Positions 19,120-33,121 of a stretch of DNA of 39,657 nt are shown in pieces. The notes under the pieces were generated by a model. The model worked only from the letters and a program-made list of their open reading frames with translations. It ran no database searches and was not told the DNA's origin. The first letter of the stretch is position 1, and every line of letters starts with the position of its first letter. Source of the stretch: a virus. A program made the position numbers and the translations under genes. The stretch lies in the IMG/VR virus record IMGVR_UViG_3300027741_000133, positions 1 through 39,657 of that record; one strand, 5' to 3'.

Positions 19120-20085
19120 ATGACCATCACAATACTCCAACAAAACGCAGAACGAATGAATGAATTAGATCAGACATTTGATCTAATTTATATGGACCCT
19201 CCATTTGGACTTCAGCGTGATTTTATGATGTTGGAGAGTGATGGTATAGAAAAAGGATTTAGTGATACTTGGTCCTCTTTTGATGATTACATTGATTGGT
19301 ATTCTCATATCATCAATGAATCCTGGAAAAAATTAAATAAAAATGGTTGGATTTATCTTCATAATAACTTCATTGGAAATGCTCTTGTATTAAGCAAAGT
19401 CAACACTGAAATTAGAGATGCTTTCTATACAAATATCTCCTGGAAAAGAAGTGGACCAAAGAATAACATCAAAAATGGTTGGGGAAATATTGTAGATAGT
19501 ATTATGGTCCTTCGCAAAGGCAATCCTTATTTCAAAGTTGAATACACAGATTTAGATGCGAAATATAAACGTAATAGCTTCAAGAATCTTGATTCAAGAG
19601 GTTATTACGCTCTAGCAAAAGTTACAGGTGAAAAAAGTAGACCCTGTAGAGTATTTGATTTTAAAGGATATGTGCCGGAGTATGGATTCAGAATTTCGGA
19701 AGAAATGTTAACAGAATTGGATAGTCATAATTTACTTCACTACGGTAAAAATACAATTTATAAAAAAATATATCTTGAAGATAATAAAGGAGTTCCAGTT
19801 CAAAACCTATGGGATGATGTACATTACATCTCTCGTAGTGAAACTAACAAAAGGAAATATCCAACACAAAAACCTTTAAAATTACTTGAAAGGATTGTGG
19901 TATCATCTTGTCCTCCAAATGGCTGGGTATTTGATCCATTTTGTGGAAGTGGAACAACTGCAATTGCATCACAATTAAATGATAGAAATTGCATTACTTC
20001 TGATATAAATAAAGACGCTATACTTTTAGCTACTGAAGCAATAGAATTTAATAATTCTAAAGTTTTAGAAGAAGTTTCACTTTAA
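19120..20085 (+). CDS. DNA methyltransferase (beta-class)
   Basis: 321 aa. Motif IV DPPFG at residues 26-30, a long central target region, YPTQKPLKLLERIVVSSCPP and the SAM motif FDPFCGSGTTAIA near residue 273. The order is that of beta-class N6-adenine or N4-cytosine methylases. Partnered with the putative nuclease upstream. It is the last gene before the giant RNA locus. Confidence 0.88.
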   Translation: MTITILQQNAERMNELDQTFDLIYMDPPFGLQRDFMMLESDGIEKGFSDTWSSFDDYIDWYSHIINESWKKLNKNGWIYLHNNFIGNALVLSKVNTEIRDAFYTNISWKRSGPKNNIKNGWGNIVDSIMVLRKGNPYFKVEYTDLDAKYKRNSFKNLDSRGYYALAKVTGEKSRPCRVFDFKGYVPEYGFRISEEMLTELDSHNLLHYGKNTIYKKIYLEDNKGVPVQNLWDDVHYISRSETNKRKYPTQKPLKLLERIVVSSCPPNGWVFDPFCGSGTTAIASQLNDRNCITSDINKDAILLATEAIEFNNSKVLEEVSL

Positions 20086-20119
20086 TTAAAGAGACACTTT
20101 TTGAACTGGCATATCACAC

Positions 20120-20148
20120 TTGACTTACGGGGTTGGCTGTGGTATGTT
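20120..20148 (+). promoter_or_regulatory. sigma70-type promoter of large ncRNA
   Basis: TTGACT (20120-20125), 17-base spacer, TATGTT (20143-20148); a stem-loop half (CACTT-TTTG-AACTG) at 20094-20108 precedes it. The transcript begins with the leader GGTCGGTGAGAGAG also found before the tRNA array and the ubl gene. Confidence 0.75.
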
Positions 20149-20159
20149 AGTTAGGTCGG

Positions 20160-21025
20160 TGAGAGAGGCAGTGAAGCAATTCATTTCTAATTTTACAGAC
20201 AAACACACAACCACATAAACAAAATTGGGATTGTCCCTCCCCTAAGTTTGAAAAGAACTTAGAAAACTGACTTCTAATCTATGAGGGTCAGACATCTTCG
20301 GATGTATAAGGGAAAGGAAGATGGAGAATACGGGTGATTGCCCTTCCAACTCCACCAGTCTTCTATCGGTTAATTCTCCTTGGCGGGAGCAGATACCGTA
20401 AGTAGCACATAAGAGTGAGCACAACGCCAATAGTGAATGCTTCTTATATGACTGGGGATTACAGTAGTTATCCCAGAAATAGGACGGAAATATCCAATTA
20501 ACAGGATTCGCCGTGAAAGCACCGTATATCGTTCCTTCGGGTGGTATATTAGGTAAACTGCGATGGATGAAACTGAAGCCCCTAACGCTATTAACGAAAG
20601 TTGGTAGTTGTGTCGAAAGACCTCTAACGGACTGTATTCACGGTGCAGAAAGTTGGAAGATGTGCGAAACTAGATTCTGATCAAGTCAGGGTAGCAAGCA
20701 TAGAAGGTGAATTCCATTATTAGATTTACTCATTAGATTAAATGAGTGGGGAAGCATCTGAACTCGGAAACGACGAGGTGTGCGTACTATCCAAATTTAA
20801 GGATAGCACAGATGCAAAGGGACTAGACGACACTAAAGCCCTTAACACTTTTGTAGGTGCCAAATACCCCTTCTTGGAGTTGAAAATAATACTGCTGGAA
20901 GAAGTAAAGAAGGAAGCGCAAGGTAATGTCTTCCTCACCTACCACTTGTATTCCATACGACCGAGCAAGCGAACGGATTCGGCTGTTAACCGAAAGTAGC
21001 TAGGGGCAGTACCTAGGTATGGAGT
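20160..21025 (+). ncRNA. giant structured ncRNA, GOLLD/ROOL-like candidate
   Basis: About 860 nt with its own consensus promoter and no credible protein; short frames at 20742-20999 and on the minus strand have no ribosome site and odd composition. It is richer in G+C than its neighbours and full of local helices: ACATC-TTCG-GATGT (20292-20305), CTATCC/GGATAG (20787-20806), a near-perfect CTGGG..CCCAG stem (20443-20469), and a 3' tRNA-shaped domain (20952-21024). GOLLD RNAs are about 800 nt, occur in phages (including lake metagenomes) and lie beside tRNA genes, which fits. The class assignment is inference; an unrelated large RNA is possible. Confidence 0.65.
20952..21024 (+). tRNA. tRNA-Asn(GUU)-like domain at 3' end of large ncRNA
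   Basis: Canonical 73-nt geometry: acceptor TCCATAC/GTATGGA, D stem CCG/CGG, anticodon arm TTCGG-CTGTTAA-CCGAA, variable AGTAG, T stem CTAGG/CCTAG. The D loop lacks GG and the T loop is GGCAGTA instead of TTCRANY, so it may be an unusual tRNA or a tRNA mimic. Asn is the only amino acid otherwise missing from the tRNA set. Confidence 0.6.
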
Positions 21026-21027
21026 TT

Positions 21028-21069
21028 CTAACCTCTAACTTATATAAATAATAATAAATTAGAGGTTAG
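21028..21069 (+). promoter_or_regulatory. start-hiding hairpin with late promoter in the loop
   Basis: CTAACCTCTAA (21028-21038) pairs perfectly with TTAGAGGTTAG (21059-21069), which contains the Shine-Dalgarno AGAGG of the HNH gene. TATAAATA (21043-21050) lies in the loop, so late RNA starting near 21056 lacks the 5' arm. Confidence 0.75.
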
Positions 21070-21070
21070 A

Positions 21071-21604
21071 ATGTCGGGCAAACGAGTTGTAGAATTTCGT
21101 CAAAGACGAAAAATATGGGCAGTAGATGCTTTTGGTGGTAAATGTGGAATTTGTGGGTATGATAAATGTATTGAAGCATTAGAGTTTCATCACATTGACC
21201 CATCACAAAAAGACTTTCCAGTATCAGCATCTGTAGCAAATAGACAAGTATTTGTTGAAGAACTTAAAAAGTGTATTTGTGTTTGCTCTAATTGTCATAG
21301 AGAAATTCACGCAAAAACAACTTCTATTCCTGATGATGTTATTAAATTTGATGAAAATTTTTCTGATAAACCTTATCCTGAAAAACCAAAACATCCCTGT
21401 AAACAATGTGGAAAATTAACTACAATTAAACAAAAATTTTGTTCAGTAAAATGTTCTACTAAAAGTAGAGAAGTTGCCAAATGGCCTAATAATGATGAAC
21501 TACTAAATCTTGTTTTAACTAATGGTTATACCGCAACAGGAAGATTATTTGGAGTTAGTGATAATGCAGTAAGAAAAAGATTAAAAAAAGTTGGAAACGA
21601 ATAA
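21071..21604 (+). CDS. HNH homing endonuclease
   Basis: 177 aa. HNH core: CGICGYDKCIEALEFHHIDP and CICVCSNCHREIHAK; then a CKQCGKLTT...FCSVKC zinc ribbon and a C-terminal HTH (NGYTATGRLFGVSDNAVRKR) shared with the HNH gene at 9411-10151. Ribosome site AGAGG is 6 bases from ATG and buried in the upstream hairpin. Located between the large ncRNA and tRNA-Met. Confidence 0.85.
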   Translation: MSGKRVVEFRQRRKIWAVDAFGGKCGICGYDKCIEALEFHHIDPSQKDFPVSASVANRQVFVEELKKCICVCSNCHREIHAKTTSIPDDVIKFDENFSDKPYPEKPKHPCKQCGKLTTIKQKFCSVKCSTKSREVAKWPNNDELLNLVLTNGYTATGRLFGVSDNAVRKRLKKVGNE

Positions 21605-23364: not shown

Positions 23365-23393
23365 TTGATTGAGCCCACAAAGAGTGCTACTAT
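23365..23393 (+). promoter_or_regulatory. sigma70-type promoter of tmRNA
   Basis: TTGATT (23365-23370), 17-base spacer, TACTAT (23388-23393), preceded by the stem-loop motif TGTGAACCGGCACAG at 23345-23359. Confidence 0.7.
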
Positions 23394-23398
23394 ATACA

Positions 23399-23648
23399 TT
23401 GTCTAGGAGGCTTTAGACACTGGTATTCAAGACTCGGATTCAACTTCCGAATACTCCACTTTATTTGGGGTATAACTGGTTTTCGATTGGATAAAAAGAC
23501 TAGAGCTGTTGAGAAGACACTAAACACAAAAGGCAACAACATTGTCGCTTTCTCTAGACAAGCAATCGCTGCTTGATTGATGATGAGAATGGGGTTAGAT
23601 TAGCCTTATCAACCAAATAATCCTATAGAGGTGAAATGCCTCTTTTTT
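23399..23648 (+). ncRNA. ssrA: circularly permuted two-piece tmRNA
   Basis: The 3' acceptor piece comes first: T arm TCGGA-TTCAACT-TCCGA (23434-23450) then ATACTCC-A (23451-23458). After about 8 bases the coding piece begins GGGGTAT (23467-23473), which pairs with ATACTCC. CTAGAGC (23500-23506) pairs with GCTTTAG (23410-23416) as helix P2. Tag frame GGC AAC AAC ATT GTC GCT ... GCT GCT TGA (23532-23576) encodes GNNIVAFSRQAIAA, a cyanobacterial-type degradation tag ending in the proteolysis signal. A pseudoknot-like GGTT/AACC and terminator follow. It rescues stalled ribosomes; here it may also turn over host proteins. Confidence 0.88.
23627..23648 (+). terminator. tmRNA terminator
   Basis: AGAGG (23627-23631) / CCTCT (23639-23643) followed by T6. 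Confidence 0.7.
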
Positions 23649-26132: not shown

Positions 26133-26402
26133 ATGTCTTTCTTTACCCAAGTCCGCACCCAAGACCAGTCTGCTTCCGTGACCCTTATCCTGAATGAGGA
26201 TTCGCTCACCCTGGCTCCCGATCAATACCGCAGCAAGACTGTTAGCCAACTGTTCACAGAGTATGGCGCTTCGCTTGGTGGTGATGTTGCTCGTATCAAC
26301 CGTTATGTTCTGAACGGTGAAGCAGTTTCCGGTGATACTGTGGTTCGCCCTGGAGAAACTGTGAGAGGTGCTGTGAGTTCGGAGTCAAAAGGGCTGGGTT
26401 GA
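26133..26402 (+). CDS. ubiquitin-like / PRTRC protein C-like beta-grasp protein
   Basis: 89 aa. Strand-helix-strand order of a beta-grasp fold: SASVTLILNEDSLTLAPDQY, then SKTVSQLFTEYGASLG helix, then INRYVLNGEAVSGDTVVRPG. The tail is flexible and ends SESKGLG with a C-terminal Gly, as ubiquitin-like modifiers and MoaD/ThiS require (GLG rather than GG). It is followed by JAMM, E2-like and E1-like genes, which is the basis for the call. PRTRC plasmid systems encode a comparable Ubl. Start at 26133, downstream of the promoter. Confidence 0.7.
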   Translation: MSFFTQVRTQDQSASVTLILNEDSLTLAPDQYRSKTVSQLFTEYGASLGGDVARINRYVLNGEAVSGDTVVRPGETVRGAVSSESKGLG

Positions 26403-26422
26403 GCCCGTATAGCCTCACCACT

Positions 26423-26467
26423 ACCCAAGTTTCCAAATGCGAGTTTTGGAAACTTGGGTTCTTTTTT
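26423..26467 (+). terminator. strong intrinsic terminator between ubl and JAMM genes
   Basis: 15-bp perfect stem ACCCAAGTTTCCAAA (26423-26437) / TTTGGAAACTTGGGT (26445-26459), then TCTTTTTTA. No clear promoter lies between it and ATG 26499. Confidence 0.9.
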
Positions 26468-26498
26468 ATCAACCTGTCCTTAACTAAATCTATCAATT

Positions 26499-27602
26499 AT
26501 GTCTACTGAAATTCAAGAACTCCAAGAACTCCAAGAAACTGTAGAAATTCAAGAAGTTGAAGTAGACACTGTGGAGCCAGAAGTTCCTAGTGTTCTTCGC
26601 ACTCGCCGTGATGGTGTATGGGAAGTCTATAATGGAACCTGGGGTTCGTATCTTCGCCCAACTGATGACCCTGACGCCAATGTTGTAATTGACGACGAGA
26701 ATCTCAAAACCTTTAATCTGAATCCTGGTATTCACAAACTTCCCGCAGAACTTTGGACTCGTTGGGTTAAACTTTGTTTCTATTATGTAGATAAAGTCAC
26801 CAGTTCCGTAGAAGTTTCAATCCGTATTCTTCGTTCAGTAGAAGATGCTTCCAAGTATCGTATGCTAGTTCCCCGTCAAAAGGTGTCTGGTGCCTCTGTG
26901 CGGGTAGATAGCTTTGATGTCGCAATTGATATTGAAACTGGAGAAGAAATCACTCAATATCCTCCTGATGGCTGGATTCCTGTTGGATCTAGTCATTCTC
27001 ACAATACCATGCCATCTTTTTTCTCTGGAATTGATGATAAGTATGAGCTTGGCGACCCTGGTATTCACTTGGTTGTAGGTGGAATCAATGTAAGTGGGCT
27101 TAAGTATACCATTGCAGCTTCTGTTGTAGGTAGTGGTCGTCGGTTTGAAGTTCCATTTACCGATTTGATTGATGCTACGCCAGTTTCAGGTGTAGAGTTT
27201 CACCCTAAAGTGATTGACTATGTGGATTATACCACTCCAGTCCATACCTCTACCTATAAGTCTACTCACGCTGGTTCTATCGTTCCTTGGAAGAAGAAAG
27301 TTTCCAAAGATGATGACGTTACCAACTCTTATCAAGAGTGGATGCGACAAGCGTATGGGGATACTACAGATGACTATTGTGACCCACACTTCTATAGTGA
27401 TGGAACCTACTCCAGTGCTAAAACTTATACTCGCACTGGAACTGCTGTAATGATGTGGGAGATTGAAGACCTCATCTCTGATTACATCAATCAAAATCAA
27501 GATGATGTGAATAAGCTCTGTCTTTTCGCAGATTCTTTGAGGGACCATCTCAATGATGTTGAGGCAGGTATTGCTATCAACATTGAAACCTACGCTGGTT
27601 GA
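26499..27602 (+). CDS. JAMM/JAB metallo-isopeptidase
   Basis: 367 aa. The JAMM zinc signature is complete: His166-Ser-His168, seven residues, Ser176-G-I-Asp179 (GSSHSHNTMPSFFSGIDD), with a candidate catalytic Glu upstream (Glu105). The first 30 residues are an acidic coiled coil (QELQELQETVEIQEVEVDTV). After residue 210 there is a long C-terminal region of unknown fold with WMRQAYGDTTDDYCDPHFY. JAMM enzymes remove or mature ubiquitin-like proteins; position after ubl and before E2/E1 genes supports that role. PRTRC protein A is the nearest known type. Confidence 0.85.
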   Translation: MSTEIQELQELQETVEIQEVEVDTVEPEVPSVLRTRRDGVWEVYNGTWGSYLRPTDDPDANVVIDDENLKTFNLNPGIHKLPAELWTRWVKLCFYYVDKVTSSVEVSIRILRSVEDASKYRMLVPRQKVSGASVRVDSFDVAIDIETGEEITQYPPDGWIPVGSSHSHNTMPSFFSGIDDKYELGDPGIHLVVGGINVSGLKYTIAASVVGSGRRFEVPFTDLIDATPVSGVEFHPKVIDYVDYTTPVHTSTYKSTHAGSIVPWKKKVSKDDDVTNSYQEWMRQAYGDTTDDYCDPHFYSDGTYSSAKTYTRTGTAVMMWEIEDLISDYINQNQDDVNKLCLFADSLRDHLNDVEAGIAINIETYAG

Positions 27603-27612
27603 TAATCCTAAT

Positions 27613-27642
27613 GGGGACGCTTTTTCAAGTGTCCCCCTTTTT
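27613..27642 (+). terminator. intrinsic terminator between JAMM and E2-like genes
   Basis: GGGGACGCTT-TTTC-AAGTGTCCCC followed by CTTTTT; a U-tract version of the intergenic stem-loop family. No promoter is evident before ATG 27659. Confidence 0.85.
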
Positions 27643-27658
27643 CACTTTATGAGGACGT

Positions 27659-28657
27659 ATGACTGCTACAATGGAACAAGCCAAAGAAACTCAAACAATG
27701 TCTGCAATTTTCCCAACTCAACCACCTTCAGCTCAAATTCATCTTCTTCCTAGGAATTCTCAATTCATTTCCTATGATGCAGATGATACTCTAACTATTT
27801 CTGCCTGGATGCGTGATGGTTTTCATACCATCAATCAAGAAAGAAAAGCTACGAATGATGATTTCTATCACAACCATTGTGAAGGGTGTGAACGAAATTG
27901 TTCTGACTTCCTTAATGAGTATGAAGATGAAGACGGTGAAATTGATTGGGATTCTGTTCCTGGAGGGTATCACGGTTATTGTAATGTTTATGATGAAGGT
28001 TATAGCGGCCAAAGTTGTCACTATGGATATGAAGTAGAAGACGAGGATTTTAACCTTATTATTGCTCCAATGGTATTCAAAATCTCTCTTAATCATATTG
28101 GAGTACCTCCTCGTTTTGAACGGTTGAGTGATAGTGCATATCTTCAAGCTGGTAAGATTATCAATGGTCGCATTTATGCAACCGACGTTAGAATGGCTAC
28201 TAATGTTTTTGGTTCTTCGGATCATCCAGAAGGTATCTGTTGGGGTAGTAATGACCGACCTGATAATCTCCGTTTGATTGTATCCAGTTATACTACAACT
28301 CCTTTCAATAATGATTTAACTTCAATTGATGCATTTGAGCATAACTGTGAACGCACTAGGACTAGTGTTGCCTTGGACAACTTCCATAATAGGTGTGATG
28401 ATACTTACCTTTGCGATGGGCAGGATGTAGATGCAATTCTTTTTGTAGATGCAGAGCAGAACATTCCAGCATTCTTTACTCTTTTGAGTGCTGGTTTCAA
28501 TTCTCTTCCAGAAGCTCCTCACGTTATGATGATTCCTCTTAAAGAAGTTGAGTTTGAACGTGATGGTTCTCACTTTACTGGGTATCAAACTATGTCCGAT
28601 GCTGTAAATCGTAATTGGTTTGTATCTATGGATGGTCTTCTTGTAGGTCAGGTCTAA
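27659..28657 (+). CDS. Prok-E2 / PRTRC protein B-like conjugation enzyme
   Basis: 332 aa. Residues 185-222 read SSDHPEGICWGSNDRPDNL ... TTTPFNNDL; the HP-x2-IC motif parallels the HPN...G.IC active-site block of ubiquitin-conjugating enzymes, making Cys194 the likely thioester cysteine, and the F-N-N-D-L segment parallels the Prok-E2 family C-terminal motif. An N-terminal Cys/His cluster (Cys74, 77, 81, 108, 120) could bind metal. Flanked by JAMM and E1-like genes. Ribosome site GAGGA 5 bases before ATG. Confidence 0.65.
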   Translation: MTATMEQAKETQTMSAIFPTQPPSAQIHLLPRNSQFISYDADDTLTISAWMRDGFHTINQERKATNDDFYHNHCEGCERNCSDFLNEYEDEDGEIDWDSVPGGYHGYCNVYDEGYSGQSCHYGYEVEDEDFNLIIAPMVFKISLNHIGVPPRFERLSDSAYLQAGKIINGRIYATDVRMATNVFGSSDHPEGICWGSNDRPDNLRLIVSSYTTTPFNNDLTSIDAFEHNCERTRTSVALDNFHNRCDDTYLCDGQDVDAILFVDAEQNIPAFFTLLSAGFNSLPEAPHVMMIPLKEVEFERDGSHFTGYQTMSDAVNRNWFVSMDGLLVGQV

Positions 28658-28666
28658 GGTGTATCA

Positions 28667-28690
28667 GTGGACGGTAATTCAACCGTCCAC
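28667..28690 (+). repeat. intergenic stem-loop, perfect copy
   Basis: GTGGACGGT / ACCGTCCAC, 9-bp stem with 6-base loop, followed by TATCAT (28724-28729) as a possible -10 for the E1-like gene. Confidence 0.8.
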
Positions 28691-28760
28691 TATATTCCCG
28701 TTTCAGCTCCCATATCTGCTATCATAGTCAAGTAAACCCCCACGCACACATTCCACATTT

Positions 28761-29474
28761 ATGGCTTTCGCTCCTGATAAAACTTTTGTGATTGGTTCTG
28801 GTGGCTCTGGCGGTCATCTTATTCCTGCTCTTTCTCGTCTTCTTGCTTATCATCAATCCACTCAAACCTCTAGTTTGATGGTGATTGATGGTGATGAGTA
28901 TGAAGAAAAGAATATGACTCGTCAGATTGTTGCTCCTTCTCAAGTTGGCCTTAACAAAGCTCGCGCAATGCAAGACTTTTGTGCTTATCAAGGCCTTGAT
29001 AACGTGATTAGCAAGGAAGACTTCATCTCCACCTCCACCTTTATTCCTCTGCTTCGGAACTCTGCTTGTCCGATGATTGTTGCTTGCGTAGATAATGATG
29101 CGACTCGTCTCGCAATCATCAATGCGATTGAAAGCACTTGTAAAGAGAAGGATTTCTTCTTCATTACTCCAGGTAATTCTGATGGTATTGAAGAAGTGAA
29201 AGGTCAAGCTCTTTGGTGGGGTCGTATCAATGGAACTACGATTGGAATGAACCCAGCTCTGGCTTATCCCAACATTGAAACTCCTCAAGATAGTATTCCA
29301 CACAAAGGTTCTTGTGCGCTTCACGCTCCTTCTCGTCCACAGTTGATTTCTGCTAACTTTCTATGTGCTGCAATTACTCTATCAGTGATTCAAAATCTTC
29401 TTGACGACCAACTAAATGCATTACAGAGTGCTATGTTCTTCAATCTTCGTAATATGAAGACTTCGGTATCTTAA
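28761..29474 (+). CDS. ThiF/E1-like adenylyltransferase
   Basis: 237 aa. Rossmann ATP-binding loop GSGGSGGHL (residues 12-20), then VIDGDEYEEKNMTRQ (43-55, with the E1 Asp and Arg), VACVDNDATR (Asp111 region) and a candidate catalytic Cys185 in HKGSCALH. It is close to a minimal ThiF/MoeB adenylation domain. Expected to activate the C-terminal Gly of the Ubl. The last 30 residues (VIQNLLDDQ ... FNLRNMKTSVS) are repeated in a separate small ORF at 30468 beyond an endonuclease gene. Confidence 0.82.
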   Translation: MAFAPDKTFVIGSGGSGGHLIPALSRLLAYHQSTQTSSLMVIDGDEYEEKNMTRQIVAPSQVGLNKARAMQDFCAYQGLDNVISKEDFISTSTFIPLLRNSACPMIVACVDNDATRLAIINAIESTCKEKDFFFITPGNSDGIEEVKGQALWWGRINGTTIGMNPALAYPNIETPQDSIPHKGSCALHAPSRPQLISANFLCAAITLSVIQNLLDDQLNALQSAMFFNLRNMKTSVS

Positions 29475-32751: not shown

Positions 32752-33023
32752 GTTTCGGTAGCTCAGCCCGGATAGAGCATCTGCCTTTAATAGGAGCCTT
32801 TCTTAGGAAACTTTGAAAGTGTAACTTCTCAAATTCGGGGAACCCTTTAATATGGTAATCCCGAGCCAAGCATCGCAAGATGAAGGTGTAGAGACTTAAC
32901 GGGAAGTGCCTAAGTCCTTATGGATATGGTAAAGAGAAAGTCCAGACCACAAACAGAAATGGTGGAGAAATCCATAGTGGTAAGCTAAGCAGTTGGTCAC
33001 AGGTTCAAATCCTGTCCGAAACG
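32752..33023 (+). tRNA. tRNA-Arg(UCU) split by a group I intron
   Basis: Exon 1 32752-32787 (GTTTCGG acceptor strand to anticodon loop CTT) and exon 2 32985-33023 (CTAA-GCAG ... CCGAAAC-G). Joined, the anticodon arm is CTGC-CTTCTAA-GCAG, giving anticodon UCU. T arm ACAGG-TTCAAAT-CCTGT. Confidence 0.85.
32788..32984 (+). other. group I intron, 197 nt
   Basis: Contains the conserved core elements: AATCCCGAGCCAAGC (about 32862-32876), GTGTAGAGACTTAACGG (R-like) and GAAAGTCCAGACC (S-like); TCGGG/CCCGA forms P4. Ends in G before exon 2 and interrupts the anticodon loop after U34. Cyanobacterial tRNA genes commonly carry such small introns. No internal ORF. Confidence 0.85.
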
Positions 33024-33048: not shown

Positions 33049-33121
33049 GCGGAAATAGCTCAATTGGTAGAGCATCGCACTTCCAATGCGAAGGTTGCCG
33101 AATCGTACTCGGTTTTCCGCT
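33049..33121 (+). tRNA. tRNA-Gly(UCC), atypical T loop
   Basis: Acceptor GCGGAAA/TTTCCGC, anticodon arm TCGCA-CTTCCAA-TGCGA. T stem GCCGA/TCGGT encloses ATCGTAC instead of a TTC-type loop. Confidence 0.78.

Follow-up and report, generated by a model that had tools for sequence, protein, structure and literature searches.

A large structured RNA family in phage tRNA arrays without a match to the GOLLD or ROOL models

Between a DNA methyltransferase gene (19120–20085) and an HNH endonuclease gene (21071–21604), the 39.7-kb virus record IMGVR_UViG_3300027741_000133, analysed over its whole length and hereafter called the window, holds a stretch of about 1 kb with no plausible protein, and ARAGORN called 23 tRNAs in the same record. 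What does this DNA encode? The first-pass annotation, made from the sequence alone, had placed a GOLLD/ROOL-type non-coding RNA at 20160–21025 (~860 nt). Large structured RNAs are rare; the phage ones, GOLLD and ROOL, form homo-oligomeric cages of RNA only, with no agreed function (PMC12286853). We found a large structured RNA within the proposed interval, with tighter boundaries: the conserved RNA occupies 20227–20843, and the remainder of the interval spans the upstream promoter, an insert of ~105 nt and a tRNA-Asn-like gene (Table 1). The G+C content is indeed above that of the surroundings (42–44% versus ~32–38% in the flanks), and that of the core is 43% in all four homologues described below.

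Table 1. Features at and around the structured RNA locus (window coordinates)
Feature	Coordinates	Strand	Description
Repeated phage promoter module	20098..20175	+	TTTTTGAACTGG palindrome, then TTGACT (20120)-17-TATGTT (20143) and GGTCGGTGAGAG; likely promoter of the RNA
Structured RNA core	20227..20843	+	~617 nt; 5'-GGGAUUGUCCC to 3' terminal hairpin AAGGG...CCCUU; homology in three other phages and covarying structure
Hairpin CTAAGTTT/GAACTTAG	20242..20262	+	replaced by CCAAATAT/GTATTTGG, CTATAACT/GGTTATAG and CTAAGATT/GGTCTTAG; 5 compensatory pairs over four sequences
Hairpin CTGAC/GTCAG	20267..20291	+	TCAGA/TCTGA in S-CRM01; 5 compensatory pairs
UUCG-capped stem	20292..20305	+	loop GUAA in L053; A-U to U-A swap in S-CRM01
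5' module (model R2)	20316..20476	+	helices 6–13; possible pseudoknot GAUUG/CAGUC
Multi-branched domain	20562..20718	+	closed by GATGGA/TCCATT; GAAA (GNRA) loops, helices 18–23; GAAA to GUAA in L053
3' module (model R1)	20659..20843	+	includes CTATCC/GGATAG (20787–20806) and terminal hairpin (20817–20843)
Insert, window only	20844..20951	+	~105 nt; separates the RNA core from the tRNA-Asn-like gene; closed by a GTAGGTG/CACCTAC stem; missing from the other three homologues
tRNA-Asn(GUU)-like gene	20952..21024	+	3' of the RNA; non-canonical T-loop GGCAGTA; missed by ARAGORN; resembles L007:1831-1903, Mwe-JY26 and Pakpunavirus tRNA-Asn
Inverted repeat CTAACCTCTAA...TTAGAGGTTAG	21028..21070	+	possible transcript end; not called by terminator scan

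Homologues, covariation and coding potential

A blastn search of phage records returned a homologue in Synechococcus phage S-CRM01 (131.08–131.71 kb, 78% identity), in an alignment that covered 63% of the 995-nt query, equivalent to nearly the whole core. Pattern searches of IMG/VR recovered another at 1052–1672 of contig 3300027214_000179 (L007; 89% identity, full core), and a combined protein-led and DNA search of whole records a third on the minus strand of contig 3300043446_005051 (L053; 2123–1501, 87% identity, full core). Across the homologues, identity ranged from 77 to 89% over almost the full length. All four RNAs sit in tRNA arrays, with differing neighbour tRNAs and protein genes: the RNA lies between tRNA-Val and tRNA-Met in L007, between tRNA-Ile and tRNA-Leu in L053, and between tRNA-Trp and a directly following tRNA-Asn in S-CRM01, where this intergenic member of the family has no annotated feature in HQ615693.

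Comparison with these related phage sequences revealed strong covariation. On a sequence-only MAFFT alignment of three members, RNAalifold predicted 178 pairs, 47 of which had compensatory changes (44 of 168 when L053 was included as a fourth sequence). In the three-sequence fold 98.1% of cells were paired, and sliding the 3' partners by 1–3 columns reduced this value to 39–42%, with 1–4 compensatory pairs. An unbiased scan for stems of at least 4 pairs that are present in all four sequences and contain at least 2 compensatory pairs found 15 covarying stems, compared to 2.05 ± 1.36 (maximum 7) in 60 column shuffles; five stems had at least 3 compensatory pairs, against 0.02 in the shuffles, and the majority of the 15 fell within the predicted fold. 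The pairing GAUUG/CAGUC, outside that fold, would make a pseudoknot within the 5' module; since chance alone should yield about two stems, it counts only as a candidate. Cross-phage conservation and compensatory base changes together show that the locus is a large structured non-coding RNA.

The many stable hairpins of the first-pass annotation are borne out by this fold, which lies below shuffled energies (z scores: region, −2.31; window core, −2.85; S-CRM01 homologue, −2.25) and whose stems covary across homologues. The UUCG-capped stem (helix 5) and the CTATCC/GGATAG stem (helix 27) are exactly where they had been placed, and both covary. Tetraloops exchanged among stable loops, from UUCG to GUAA at 20297–20300 and, in L053, from GAAA to GUAA at 20615–20618, while helices 18, 20 and 21 of the multi-branched domain had 6, 4 and 3 compensatory pairs, respectively. 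With four members, the data constrain the finer points of the structure and the candidate pseudoknot only loosely, and support was poor for helix 16 as well as for parts of helix 29 (in the numbering of the three-sequence fold).

A protein encoded on either strand, with the structure incidental, would be an alternative, and antisense open stretches of 99–142 codons are present in each homologue. However, single-base indels shift the antisense frame and substitutions show no preference for any codon position, for which reason we dropped the antisense reading; every sense frame of the four homologues has many stops, and 47 compensatory pairs cannot arise from coding. With ORFs of at most 85 aa in the region, the earlier reading of no plausible protein agrees with these results, and we assign a negligible probability to a coding origin.

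Relation to known RNAs and distribution of the family

The setting, size and ornateness of this RNA recall GOLLD and ROOL, and it could in principle be a divergent member of either, given an equal size class, a phage and tRNA-array location, and an ornate fold (PMC12286853). Infernal spoke against the family names: a cmscan of the stretch against the 4,227 families of Rfam 15, with permissive filters, returned zero matches at E ≤ 5, and neither the ROOL model (RF03087) nor the GOLLD model (RF02032, searched without a GOLLD positive control) matched anything at E ≤ 10 in the window record, S-CRM01, the L007 contig or Microcystis phage Mwe-JY26. The ROOL model recovered the true ROOL on pMP118 at 130.4 bits, whereas covariance models built from the 3' module (R1) and the 5' module (R2) of our RNA scored at most 5.5 bits on that pMP118 locus, so that sequence and structure models match in neither direction. 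Membership of GOLLD or ROOL is therefore highly improbable. Since Rfam gave no match but covariation was strong, the "structured RNA in a phage tRNA array" part of the original proposal holds and the named families fall. We are highly confident that 20227–20843 represents a structured RNA gene family distinct from both.

The likeness to other large RNAs is nevertheless considerable. ROOL is a phage/prophage and megaplasmid RNA of ~570–660 nt, often located by tRNA islands, ornate and with no known protein partner. GOLLD is a phage RNA of tRNA arrays that also occurs in clusters containing an HNH endonuclease gene, and a tRNA or pseudo-tRNA sometimes lies within it (PMC6582537); in contrast to GOLLD, whose 5' half is variable, both halves are conserved in our RNA. 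As in large ornate phage non-coding RNAs generally, the RNA exceeds 400 nt, has a covarying multi-helix fold, is non-coding and is conserved across phages. Abundant lncRNAs of ICP1 and Staphylococcus phage K have been likened by their authors to GOLLD/ROOL (PMC7567579, PMC9241854), but R1 and R2 found no homologue in either genome. The best weak R2 match in ICP1, which has an orphan lncRNA, scored 14.5 bits inside a helicase gene (82988–84403) and is attributed to chance.

We searched with R1 and R2 a set of ~80 contigs related by Dps-like or helicase proteins, some of them scanned with one model only, together with phages S-CRM01, S-CREM1, S-CREM2, S-CBWM1, S-PM2, DSL-LC03, S-B68, MA10, ICP1, phage K and Mwe-JY26. 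Clear matches were confined to the known four members; the models did not find the RNA in any of the phages from S-CREM1 to MA10 in this list, and DNA and model searches did not find it in close relatives by Dps-like protein, among them the 243- and 248-kb contigs. Weak matches of 9–15 bits in L141–L143, L159, L161 and L166 appear to be due to chance: helices were broken or skipped in the alignments printed for weak matches, and L141–L143 and L159 had no nearby tRNA, while L161 and L166 were dismissed by score alone. Of the 36 contigs matched by the degenerate pattern AANNNNGANACGANNNNGTGTGCG, nhmmer upheld just L007 and L008; scanning bacterial genomes with a pattern produced three matches, all by chance, and a plasmid search returned nothing convincing. 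The family thus has a narrow, patchy distribution: S-CRM01 and window-like contigs carry it, and it is missing from many relatives. It is missing from Rfam 15, and no description of it was found in the literature searched, a partial coverage that did not include the original S-CRM01 paper; the family appears to be new, while the kind, a large phage RNA in a tRNA array, is already known.

S-CRM01 is a freshwater isolate from Copco Reservoir with a Synechococcus host on record (cultured, LC16). The phages of the window, L007 and L053 are apparently also cyanophages, as we infer for the window from its type of tmRNA and for L007 from what reads by eye as part of a porin gene of cyanobacterial appearance at the contig end. 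The window tmRNA (23384–23642), missed by ARAGORN, is of the cyanobacterial type (RF01851, 104.8 bits), and the permuted tmRNA model matches too.

Promoters and neighbouring genes

The consensus promoter suggested at the outset, TTGACT-17-TATGTT, is present at 20120–20148, and its match by itself is not significant because 2 sites of this kind turned up in the scan, against 3.2 in shuffles. This promoter belongs to a module repeated ~10 times in the window, and the copy at 20098–20175 is likely the promoter of the structured RNA transcript. Upstream of the L007 and L053 RNAs, TTGACA-17-TATGAT and TTGACA-17-TATGGT end 7–9 nt before a conserved 5'-GGGAUUGUC (GGG start).

The module copies are intergenic, all on the plus strand (7923, 14769, 15830, 20098, 24251, 25022, 25905, 26015, 30379 and 32437), and consist of a palindrome like ACGGTTTTTGAACCGT followed ~40–50 nt on by a −10-like box; similar elements occur in L007 and L053. 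The set looks like a phage promoter/operator system.

At the other end of the RNA, the 3' hairpin is followed after 2–7 nt by a tRNA at three of the four loci (tRNA-Met in L007, tRNA-Leu in L053, tRNA-Asn in S-CRM01), and in the window ~105 extra bases separate it from the tRNA-Asn-like gene. The close spacing would suit a role in cis on the phage tRNA transcript, as a leader or a scaffold for its processing, with RNase P/E recruitment or antitermination across the array as the means, rather than a role in trans. However, the downstream tRNA differs each time (Asn, Met, Leu, Asn-like), the insert intervenes in the window, two loci have a strong promoter of their own, and a conserved fold of >600 nt is far beyond the needs of known processing leaders. 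We consider this main rival unlikely.

The adjoining HNH endonuclease gene could instead point to a ribozyme, or to the remnant of a self-splicing intron or mobile intron-like element, particularly as the window has a group I intron elsewhere (32771–32966; RF00028, 59.4 bits), shortly upstream of tRNA-Gly at 33049. Yet cmscan gave no Intron_gpI, gpII or ribozyme family match at the stretch, which showed neither a catalytic core nor an interrupted exon. In S-CRM01, L007 and L053 it is tRNAs and not the endonuclease gene that directly flank the RNA, and these are complete on both sides, which leaves no split exon. An intron or ribozyme origin is thus quite improbable.

Both the D-arm and the T-loop of the tRNA-Asn-like gene are atypical (AGGGGCAGTACCT, lacking TTCRA). 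Genes of this type were noted at L007:1831–1903, L006 near 1501–1558 and L163:127–203. Versions with 76–81% identity are present in L007, Mwe-JY26 and Pseudomonas Pakpunaviruses, where the gene is annotated as tRNA-Asn, so that phages with unrelated hosts have an unusual tRNA in common.

Possible modes of action

The best overall explanation, which we hold with moderate confidence, is that of a new ornate RNA family, transcribed with the tRNA array and stable, whose product functions as RNA, the likeliest role being that of a homo-oligomeric scaffold or cage. In L007 and L053, transcription would start from the RNA's own, clearly visible sigma-70-type promoter, and in the window and S-CRM01 from a phage promoter lying upstream; in S-CRM01, the ~620-nt RNA would begin with GGAUUGUCUC. 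The 3' end of the RNA may then be cut as RNase P matures the tRNA that follows, a proposal that fits three loci better than the window because the ~105-nt insert precedes the tRNA-like gene there. The stable product would accumulate during infection and, by analogy, might be abundant: ROOL forms an eight-chain RNA cage, can equal 16S rRNA in abundance and was non-essential in one strain (PMC12286853), and one GOLLD accumulated in lytic infection and was dispensable (PMC7567579). The assembled RNA could handle ribosomes, tRNAs or other cargo.

A GOLLD/ROOL-like mode of action, perhaps as a multimeric scaffold, is put forward tentatively, the functional analogy being one of size, setting and ornateness only. 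It is likewise possible, if somewhat short of probable, that this family, although its sequence is unrelated to theirs, resembles GOLLD and ROOL in self-assembling into an RNA-only complex. As a third family of that size and tRNA-array address, with a sequence of its own, it suggests a convergent need for such RNAs in tRNA-rich phages; if self-assembly were true, such phages would have evolved these RNAs repeatedly, and the isolated cyanophage S-CRM01 would be a system in which to learn what they do. Given that S-CRM01 is cultured, together with its Synechococcus host LC16, expression, structure and loss of function are directly testable.

Elsewhere in the window, a gene row at 26136–29471 is composed of a small ORF (26136–26402), a weak Prok-JAB match (26499–27602), an unknown gene (27659–28657) and a ThiF/E1-like gene (28761–29474), a possible phage ubiquitin-like conjugation set. 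Relatives of the JAB-like and E1-like genes are adjacent in Vibrio phages D69, D148 and D181.
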